A stretch of DNA of 32,922 bases from a virus. The stretch is from positions 1 to 32,922 of IMG/VR virus record IMGVR_UViG_3300045972_000171. One strand, written 5' to 3'. Both the position numbers and the translations under genes were made by a program. This document shows, piece after piece, positions 19,760-21,575 of this stretch. Positions within the stretch are counted from its first letter, which is position 1. Each line of letters begins with the position of its first letter. The notes under the pieces are model-generated. The model searched no databases. It was not told the origin of the DNA and saw nothing but the letters and a program-made list of their open reading frames with translations.

Positions 19760-20710
19760 TTAGACGTTCGTGACCTCGAGCACGGCCCATGCCTTTTCGT
19801 GAGCGAGACCGAAGGCGCGACGAGCGCGAACCTTGAGAATCGTCTCATCGGTGAGCGCCGAGAGTCCCGAGCGGCCGTCGATGACGACGCTCTCGGGGCC
19901 CGAGCGCTTGCCGACGATGGCGAAGTCGGGGTTGCCGAAGAAGAGCAAGGCGTTGCCCGCGACGCCGTTGGCGCCACCTCCCGCGACCGCGGCTTGGGTC
20001 GACTGAGCCGTCAAGGTGACGACCGCGCCGTTCGTGAACTTAATCGGGTAGCCGAAGACCGTGTCGGGGTCGCCGACGCGCGGCGACGGCGTGAAGATTG
20101 GCTCGCCGGTCGTGTCTTTGATCTTGCGAATGATGCCCTTGAGGCTCGGGTGACCTACGAACATATCGCGCGAGCCGTCGTCGTAGCCCGCGCCCTCGAC
20201 CTTCGAGGCGAGGTCGCTAATCATGTCGTAAGTCACGACGCCCGCGCTCTTCGCCCAGTTGGCGTCGGCCGTGTAGCCGGTCGCCGCGTTGGTCGTGCGA
20301 AGCGCCTTGTAGATCGACGTGAAGGGCACGGTCGAGCCGTTGGCCGCCGCGTTGACGGCGAAGACCGAGTTGTCAAGCGCGATGCCGAAGCTCGTGACCC
20401 ACCCAACCTTTTTGTTGGTCAGGATGTCGGCGACCTCGTCGTCGATGTCTTCCTCGGCGATACGAAGCGCGCGACCGAACTTGACGGCGGTGAGGTTGAT
20501 CTCATCATTGGCCCCGGCGTCTTCGGTGTATGCCGCGCCCTTGGCGACCACGGCGACATCCATGTCGACCATGCGCGGCTCACTCTTGAGAATGCCGCTC
20601 ATGGGGACAGACCGAAGCAAGGTCTCGGCGACCGAGACTTGAGCCAGTCGACGGATGACCTCTGAACCTTGCTCTTCGCGCATCCAAAGGTCGAGAACGT
20701 TGCGAGCCAT
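19760..20710 (-). CDS. Major capsid protein (HK97 fold)
   Basis: A 316-aa protein from the ATG at 20710 (MARNVLDLWMREEQ). The longer opening to 20731 runs into the folded leader. The N-terminal helix, VDMDVAVVAKGAAYTEDAGANDEINLTAVKFGRALRIAEEDIDDE (E-loop and spine region) and the C-terminal GNPDFAIVGKRSGPESVVI and ILKVRARRAFGLAHEKAWAVLEV are typical of actinophage HK97-fold subunits. There is no long delta domain; a separate scaffold gene lies upstream, as expected. Hairpins lie on both sides, and the leader folds over the ribosome site. Confidence 0.88.
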   Translation of the reverse strand: MARNVLDLWMREEQGSEVIRRLAQVSVAETLLRSVPMSGILKSEPRMVDMDVAVVAKGAAYTEDAGANDEINLTAVKFGRALRIAEEDIDDEVADILTNKKVGWVTSFGIALDNSVFAVNAAANGSTVPFTSIYKALRTTNAATGYTADANWAKSAGVVTYDMISDLASKVEGAGYDDGSRDMFVGHPSLKGIIRKIKDTTGEPIFTPSPRVGDPDTVFGYPIKFTNGAVVTLTAQSTQAAVAGGGANGVAGNALLFFGNPDFAIVGKRSGPESVVIDGRSGLSALTDETILKVRARRAFGLAHEKAWAVLEVTNV

Positions 20711-20711
20711 G

Positions 20712-20806
20712 AAAGGCCCCTTTCTGCCCACTTGGGCAACGGTTGGGTGTGCCGCTTCGCGGGGGCGAAGCCGTACTCGTTGCGAGTGTGGGCCGAAAGG
20801 GGCCTT
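20712..20806 (-). ncRNA. Structured 5' leader of the major capsid gene
   Basis: Arms at 20713-20730 and 20789-20806 pair at 17 of 18 positions. The arm next to the capsid ATG contains the ribosome site AGAAAGGGG, so the stem would hide it. Between the arms are two more hairpins: ACTCG-CAA-CGAGT (minus strand, 20788-20776) and GCTTCGC-CCCC-GCGAAGC (20771-20754). TGGGCA at 20733-20738 can also pair with TGCCCA at 20725-20730, competing with the outer stem. This is a multi-branched leader capable of two states. It may control capsid translation or bind a phage protein. Confidence 0.65.
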
Positions 20807-20827
20807 AGCGGGATAGTAGCAGAACGA

Positions 20828-21517
20828 CTAGCCGCGGCCGAGCAAGATATCGGCTTGCTTTTGGCTCGCGTCTTTCTTTTTGGCCGAGCCCGACTCGCGC
20901 TCGCCGCTGCCGTCTTTCTCCCCCGCGACCGAGCGCTTGCGCTTGGGCGCCGCGAAGAGCGCGGGCATGGTTTTCTTGAGCTCGGCAAGAGCCTCGTCGA
21001 CGGCCTCATCGTCGTCGAGGTCAAACTCGTCGACATCGATCATGCGCGCGAGCGACGGGCGTGCTGCCTTGTCGACGCCCGCGTCGGCGAGAGCCGCGAC
21101 GACCTTGGCGACCTTCGCCGTTTTCTCGCCCGCGCGGATACCCTCGAGCTTCGCGGTCTCCCGAATCGTCTCGATGTCGGGGCCGTCATCGTCTTCGGCC
21201 TTGGCCTTCGGCTTGCCCTTGGGTGCCACGCGCGCCGCGTCGAGCTCGCGCGTTAGCGACTTAATCTTGTCGCGCTTCGCCTTGCTCGAGCCCGATGCCT
21301 TGCTCAACGACTCACGCACGGCCTTGAGCTCGGCGCGCAACTCGTCTTCGGTCTTGCCCTCGTCGGGGTCGTCGTCTTCGTCGTCTTCGTCGTCTTCGTC
21401 GTCGAGGTCGTCATCGTCGGCGCCACCGCCGTCGTCGGCAGCCTTGGCGAAGACGATGCCAGGCCGGGCCCAGTACGGCAGTGCCCACTTGTGTCGGTTG
21501 TCGGGGTTCATGCTCAT
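20828..21517 (-). CDS. Capsid scaffolding protein
   Basis: A 229-aa protein. It is highly charged, with a run of Asp/Glu at about residues 28-55 and a central coiled-coil helix (ELRAELKAVRESLSKASGSSKAKRDKIKSLTRELDAARV). A helical domain with ADAGVDKAARPSLARMIDVDEFDLDDDEAVDEALAELKKTMPALF precedes a basic, disordered C-terminus. This is the standard layout of phage scaffolds, in which the basic C-terminus contacts the capsid shell. It lies directly upstream of the capsid gene. A CCCCCGAAAG motif precedes the start. A second ATG two codons in (MNPDN) is possible. Confidence 0.8.
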   Translation of the reverse strand: MSMNPDNRHKWALPYWARPGIVFAKAADDGGGADDDDLDDEDDEDDEDDDPDEGKTEDELRAELKAVRESLSKASGSSKAKRDKIKSLTRELDAARVAPKGKPKAKAEDDDGPDIETIRETAKLEGIRAGEKTAKVAKVVAALADAGVDKAARPSLARMIDVDEFDLDDDEAVDEALAELKKTMPALFAAPKRKRSVAGEKDGSGERESGSAKKKDASQKQADILLGRG

Positions 21518-21538
21518 CGCTTTCTTTCGGGGGTGGGA

Positions 21539-21564
21539 GGGGCGGCGCCGAGTAGCGCCGCCCC
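21539..21564 (-). terminator. Hairpin between endolysin and scaffold genes
   Basis: Arms GGGGCGGCGC (21539-21548) and GCGCCGCCCC (21555-21564) form a 10-bp stem with a 6-base loop. It lies 11 bases after the endolysin stop and just before TCCCACCCCCGAAAG and the scaffold start. It is a third member of the late-operon hairpin family. It could end some transcripts after the endolysin or create a processed 5' end for the scaffold-capsid message. Confidence 0.65.
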
Positions 21565-21575
21565 GGTGAAACTAA

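Follow-up and report, generated by a model that had tools for sequence, protein, structure and literature searches.

A candidate translational control leader that buries the ribosome site of the major capsid gene in a phage related to those of soil actinobacteria

The window, that is, the whole stretch of DNA analysed here, is a 32,922-nt phage contig from a virus record and is related to phages of soil actinobacteria. Its minus strand carries a gene (19760-20710, ATG at 20710-20708) for an HK97-fold major capsid protein (MCP) of 316 aa, which matched Pfam PF05065 (Phage_capsid) with an E-value of 8e-13 and PHROG 10 (major head protein) with an E-value of 8e-19. Among annotated phages, those closest to it are Wyvern, OscarSo and Isperia of Microbacterium, whose MCPs share 62-63% identity with that of the window (63% for Wyvern) and whose annotated gene order of portal, minor capsid protein, endolysin, scaffold and MCP is the same as in the window. 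The gene preceding the MCP gene (20828-21517, minus strand, 229 aa) occupies the same place as the annotated scaffolding proteins of these three phages; its product matched PHROG 8952, which is of unknown function, and has a basic C-terminus (...APKRKRSVAG...AKKKDASQKQADILLGRG). A basic stretch of this kind (KRKRSVAG and similar) was common to the scaffold-like C-termini of the window (20828-20860, minus strand) and of the related loci L025, L030, L031, L034, L035 and L060, all closing with an ASE.QAA.LLG-like end, and could possibly serve as an RNA- or coat-binding tail. The leader of the scaffold-like gene (21518-21575, minus strand) contains a very stable hairpin, GGGGCGGCGC-UACUCG-GCGCCGCCCC, without a GNRA loop. 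The satellite phages Mulchroom (L015) and MiniFlayer (L018) also encode capsid proteins related to the window MCP (32-39% identity), and their MCP leaders showed no GNRA-loop hairpin at the thresholds used.

Folding of the 117 nt minus-strand RNA between the scaffold-like and MCP genes gave an MFE of -56.1 kcal/mol, compared with a mean of -35.1 (sd 3.0) for shuffled sequences, corresponding to a z-score of -6.94 with none of 200 shuffles as good. The plus strand of the same leader also folded well (z -5.05), which is to be expected from an inverted repeat. The original prediction, made from the letters of the window, had described outer arms paired at 17 of 18 positions; the pairing was confirmed but the count was one pair short, as the arms 20788-20806 and 20713-20731 pair at 18 of 19 positions. 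The resulting helix, P0, is bipartite (12 + 6 bp). In the outer helix, the 5' arm AAGGCCCCTTTC (20795-20806), complementary to the SD and hence termed anti-SD, pairs with the 3' arm GAAAGGGGCCUU (20713-20724); after a G20794/A20725 mismatch, the inner helix joins GCCCAC (20788-20793) to GUGGGC (20726-20731). The underlying inverted repeat (29 nt, 83% complementary) ranked first in the window among repeats within 150 nt, and the 3' end of P0 stops two bases short of the MCP ATG. The SD AGAAAGGGG (20725-20717), held by the 3' arm of the outer helix together with A20725, lies inside the P0 region and had an unpaired probability of 0.00 in the partition function of the window leader, so that the ribosome site is indeed enclosed in the outer stem just before the capsid start, as had been proposed.

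The two internal hairpins foreseen in the original prediction are both present within P0. One, Pa (20775-20787, ACUC-GCAAC-GAGU), has a GNRA-plus-one loop, and the other, P3 (20754-20772), comprises the GGCUUCG-CCCC-CGAAGC region and is backed by the fold, by its position and by partial covariation in the alignment of the close set (A4). Pairings that exclude P0, likewise anticipated, were found as well. The alternative 5' hairpin P1 (GGCC-CCUUUC-GGCC, 20791-20804) places the anti-SD in its loop and its columns covary in A4, and a short hairpin beside the SD (UGCCC-AAGU-GGGCA, 20725-20738), exclusive with the inner part of P0, appears once P1 is enforced. In transcript prefixes, P1 was present in the MFE folds of 30-75 nt, P1, Pa and P3 persisted until ~75 nt, and P0 formed only after about 80 nt; at full length, the leader reached -44.0 kcal/mol with P1 enforced versus -55.7 kcal/mol without. 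A further helix, P2, seen in the centroid fold, would join CGUUGC (P2', 20736-20741) to the Pa segment GCAACG (20783-20778). This pairing was weak in the window (p 0.135) and reached p <= 0.05 in 23 of 43 leaders, many of them distant, mostly at invariant sequence; covariation in the close set gave it no support, and P2 was set aside as a general helix and is treated here as putative.

P0 arms were found at matching distances from the MCP start in the window and in L030, L034, L035 and L038 (5' arm at -96 to -90, 3' arm at -21 to -11), even though their letters largely differ. These five leaders represent three lineages. Their pairs were scored by hand alignment, as MAFFT gapped the helix both with whole leaders and with excised arms; all 15 scored pairs were standard in all five leaders, a result that is partly by construction since the arms were located per sequence. 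The compensatory changes and the arm positions are not products of that placement: changes on both sides were observed at 10 of the 15 pairs, including all five scored pairs of the inner helix, so that the compensatory changes sought in relatives do occur in P0 across the three lineages. Shuffling of the 5' arm gave p <= 0.005 for each of the five leaders, and every one of them outperformed its shuffled controls in overall folding (z -5.4 to -6.4 across the set). Because the relatives hold the fold with different letters, the leader very probably represents a genuine control element.

Upstream of P0, and not part of the original prediction, an extended -10 box TGNTANNNT was detected between -90 and -115 of the MCP start in every one of 21 close relatives, at distances of 93-111 nt, where shuffled sequences gave an expectation of 0.13. 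In the window it reads TGCTACTAT (20813-20821, minus strand). An adenine follows the -10 hexamer by about 7-9 nt in all 21 relatives, and this candidate start adenine, 7-8 nt after TGCTATCTT, corresponds in the window to A20806, the predicted transcription start and at the same time the first base of P0. An extended -10 box works without a -35 hexamer. No TTGACA-type -35 box was found upstream of the window MCP leader, and a general sigma-70 scan returned nothing because this hexamer is absent; by direct reading of the sequence, rather than by the pattern scan applied to their relatives, two Zukovirus leaders carry a TTGACA-N18-TANNNT pair in the same interval. Judged from these motifs, the capsid gene is most likely under its own promoter. 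Given the conserved box and a start at 20806, P0 would therefore join the 5' end of the capsid mRNA to its own SD. When leaders were defined by the promoter, 10 of 21 had 8-11 of the 12 bases at their 5' end paired to the SD region, against 3.4 leaders expected past the threshold, and 11 of 21 had few or none of these bases buried there; leaders with P0 were mostly 91-96 nt long (L033, with 81 nt, being an exception) and those without were mostly 78-88 nt.

The surroundings of the promoter differ among loci. Only ~10 nt separate the scaffold stop from the capsid promoter in the window. A strong GC-rich hairpin lies in this interval in nine relatives (L008, 1-3001; L009, L010, L022, L024, L025, L029, L031 and L033), exemplified by AAGCCCCTCCC...GGGAGGGGCTT in Wyvern, and may shield the capsid promoter by acting as a terminator or attenuator. 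At six other loci (L045, L060, L061, L104, L110 and L129) the MCP leader starts with TTGACA...GGTATATTC, which resembles a promoter, and then a palindrome, TTCATCACC-AGGTGAA, possibly a DNA operator.

The most widely conserved part of the leader proved to be the Pa-type hairpin, the second addition to what had been noted before. Alignment A4 contains a near-invariant C.CG..A.GRG that corresponds to Pa, a 4-bp hairpin, which was paired in 19 of 19 aligned leaders and had two pairs changed on both sides. Its loop is always GNRA, mostly with an added pyrimidine (GUGAU, GGGAU, GCGAU, GAGAU, GGAAU and GCAAU; GCAAC in the window). The combined covariation of P1, Pa and P3 in A4 was 0.280, compared with 0.147 in shuffled alignments (0 of 500 as high), and exceeded all slid controls. 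Beyond the close set, in 71 de-duplicated MCP leaders that include those of distant actinophages, a GNRAN-loop hairpin with a stem of at least 4 bp was present in 45, compared with a mean of 6.8 and a maximum of 12 in shuffles; one with the loop GUGAU was present in 28, versus 0.14 expected. When GUGAU sites were chosen by the loop alone, a stem of at least 3 bp was found at 49 of 65 sites in leaders versus 20% of sites outside the leaders of these loci. The control loop patterns subjected to the same stem test in leaders showed no comparable excess. Many Streptomyces prophage MCP leaders have two copies of the hairpin, at about -97 and -56, and further copies, often as a tandem pair, lie just upstream of what is by position the putative scaffold start, where the SD GGGAG overlaps or abuts the 3' strand. 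At L045, L048, L061, L066, L072 and L106, such tandem GNRA-loop hairpins were seen ~800-1000 nt upstream of the MCP gene, immediately before the putative scaffold start, and it is the 3' strand of the second hairpin that carries or adjoins the SD GGGAG.

A conserved loop on covarying stems, as looked for in a protein-bound autogenous operator, is present in Pa, which is probably a docking site or operator for an RNA-binding protein, and the positional counts of hairpins at both scaffold and capsid mRNAs point to a shared trans-acting factor. Two other explanations of the loop were discarded. An upstream ORF starting within it (GUG AUG) is unlikely, as the window and distal hairpins (GGUGAUC) have no AUG there; pairing of GUGAU with AUCAC beside the anti-SD of 16S rRNA is at odds with the variants GCAAC, GGAAU, GAGAU and GCGAU, which keep the GNRA form.

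We propose, with a probability of roughly 0.55, that the region is a translational control element and serves as the ~96 nt 5' leader of a dedicated MCP mRNA. Transcription would start at the extended -10 promoter just past the scaffold stop codon, which would make the anti-SD arm the first 12 nt of the transcript; P1, Pa and P3 would fold first during leader synthesis, and the SD, once transcribed, would be captured by the 5' end to form P0, blocking 30S loading. With P0 closing the SD at equilibrium, capsid translation would be throttled unless the helix is held open. Pa would dock an RNA-binding protein, the leading guess being the scaffold or capsid protein as an autoregulator, which would couple the synthesis of shell protein to assembly; this best guess draws on analogy and on the basic tail of the scaffold-like protein. 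Several points speak against a control leader: a long helix burying the SD is odd for a gene that has to be very strongly expressed, 11 of 21 relatives do without pairing between the 5' end and the SD, and the clade with P0 comprises only five leaders in three lineages.

Both marks of an SD-sequestering leader, an SD within a stable helix and its compensatory conservation, were found here, and several known systems offer parallels. The late-gene leaders of T4 genes e, soc and I-TevI contain SD-sequestering hairpins, and late promoters of gene e yield transcripts without the 5' arm, which allows the late RNA to be translated (PMC3014915). The window shares with them a phage gene whose SD lies in a helix with its 5' arm at the promoter, but the gene concerned is that of the major capsid protein and no start inside or after the 5' arm, as in gene e, was indicated, the predicted start at 20806 being the first base of an arm that would be kept whole. 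In T4 gp43 and gp32, autogenous translational operators consist of a hairpin ~40 nt ahead of the start, and the gene product binds conserved bases in its loop (PMC3014915); Pa is likewise a hairpin upstream of the start with conserved loop bases, whereas the gene it precedes encodes a structural protein and its binder is putative. Translation of lambda N is repressed by N bound at nutL (PMC5725501), that is, by a protein-RNA complex to which a protein bound at Pa would be the counterpart. There, too, a GNRA-like pentaloop hairpin stands upstream of the SD in a phage leader, and by its letters the loop in the window (GCAAC), as in the 45 leaders with GNRA-plus-one loops, would count as such a pentaloop; the differences are the gene, the lack of a boxA visible by eye, and a loop made of GNRA plus a 3' nucleotide, not of GNRA with an internal insertion as in boxB. 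The scaffolding protein of P22 is autoregulated. A protein acting through the window leader would similarly couple the production of both proteins, scaffold and shell, to assembly, the contact between RNA element and protein being in our case a conjecture. No Rfam family was found at the gathering score in the window or in 20 related loci, and for the leader at E up to 5 nothing credible emerged, the best match being at chance level and on the opposite strand; nor did the open-access literature yield a description of this leader.

Each of the rival explanations fits part of the evidence and none fits all of it. The 5' stems of the ompA type stabilise mRNA, and P0 might likewise guard a long-lived capsid mRNA from decay that depends on the 5' end, burial of the SD being a tolerated side effect overcome by ribosomes or a host helicase. 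Long life would be useful to a capsid mRNA and P0 would begin exactly at the predicted 5' end, yet a stabiliser could omit the SD, with which P0 pairs precisely in several lineages, and in the relatives whose leaders are mostly shorter the 5' end does not pair with it; we consider this account unlikely. Less likely again is control by the nascent RNA free of any protein, in which P1 would delay P0 so that only new mRNA is translated. The maturation-gene leader of MS2, in which a transient structure precedes the translation-inactive fold (PMC6733600), is the model for it. There as in the window a 5' hairpin (here P1) competes with a long-range fold burying the SD, although MS2 is an RNA phage and the window leader was compared by static folds. 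We know of no conserved GNRA hairpin in the MS2 leader. The order of folding in prefixes, the energy cost of enforcing P1 and the covariation of P1 agree with such kinetic control; the MFE of prefixes is not kinetics, however, and neither the conservation of the Pa loop in distant phages nor the Pa-type hairpins before scaffold genes would be explained.

By analogy with the lambda N leader, P0 (18 bp and a mismatch) might be an RNase III-type substrate whose cleavage would release the SD by stripping off the 5' arm. RNase III reportedly modulates the translational repression of lambda N, to go by the title of a 2002 paper, and the length and position of P0 would suit the enzyme; we nevertheless find this doubtful, and place it below the nascent-RNA account. 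A transcriptional signal for the downstream operon, either a terminator or attenuator or a boxB-like antitermination site, is improbable. Established targets of phage N peptides include GNRA-like pentaloop hairpins (PMC12550061) and the hairpin sits at the start of the late transcript, but the fold is linked to the SD, no boxA-like motif was seen by eye in the leaders, and no intrinsic terminator (GC stem plus U run) was called on the minus strand, where the stem is followed by just UUUC. A functionless palindrome would be conceivable in a GC-rich genome with many inverted repeats, but the z-score of -6.9, the covariation and the recurrence at the same place in relatives make it extremely improbable, refuting it as far as computation can.

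Beyond the control leader of the window, we tentatively envisage an RNA operator class, so far undescribed, in which one or two GNRA-plus-one hairpins in actinophage capsid leaders, and in Streptomyces prophage scaffold leaders, would be bound by one phage protein to set shell and scaffold stoichiometry, the helix between 5' end and SD acting as the output switch in some lineages. To our knowledge, what has been learned of how tailed phages balance shell against scaffold protein comes mainly from a handful of enterobacterial phages. Here, a compact conserved RNA element precedes the capsid genes of a broad actinophage group, and the putative operator hairpin also occurs in the cultured Microbacterium phages Wyvern, Isperia and OscarSo; should the element prove to be bound by a structural protein, DNA phages would have in it an equivalent of the coat operator of RNA phages, and it would be a ready part for expression control in actinobacteria. 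A search of 296 Streptomyces genomes for an exact 16-base hairpin gave 10 matches, versus 7 with a reversed-pattern control; an MCP homologue was present at 4 of 11 fetched loci (L222, L223, L225 and L226), and the remaining matches look like chance.
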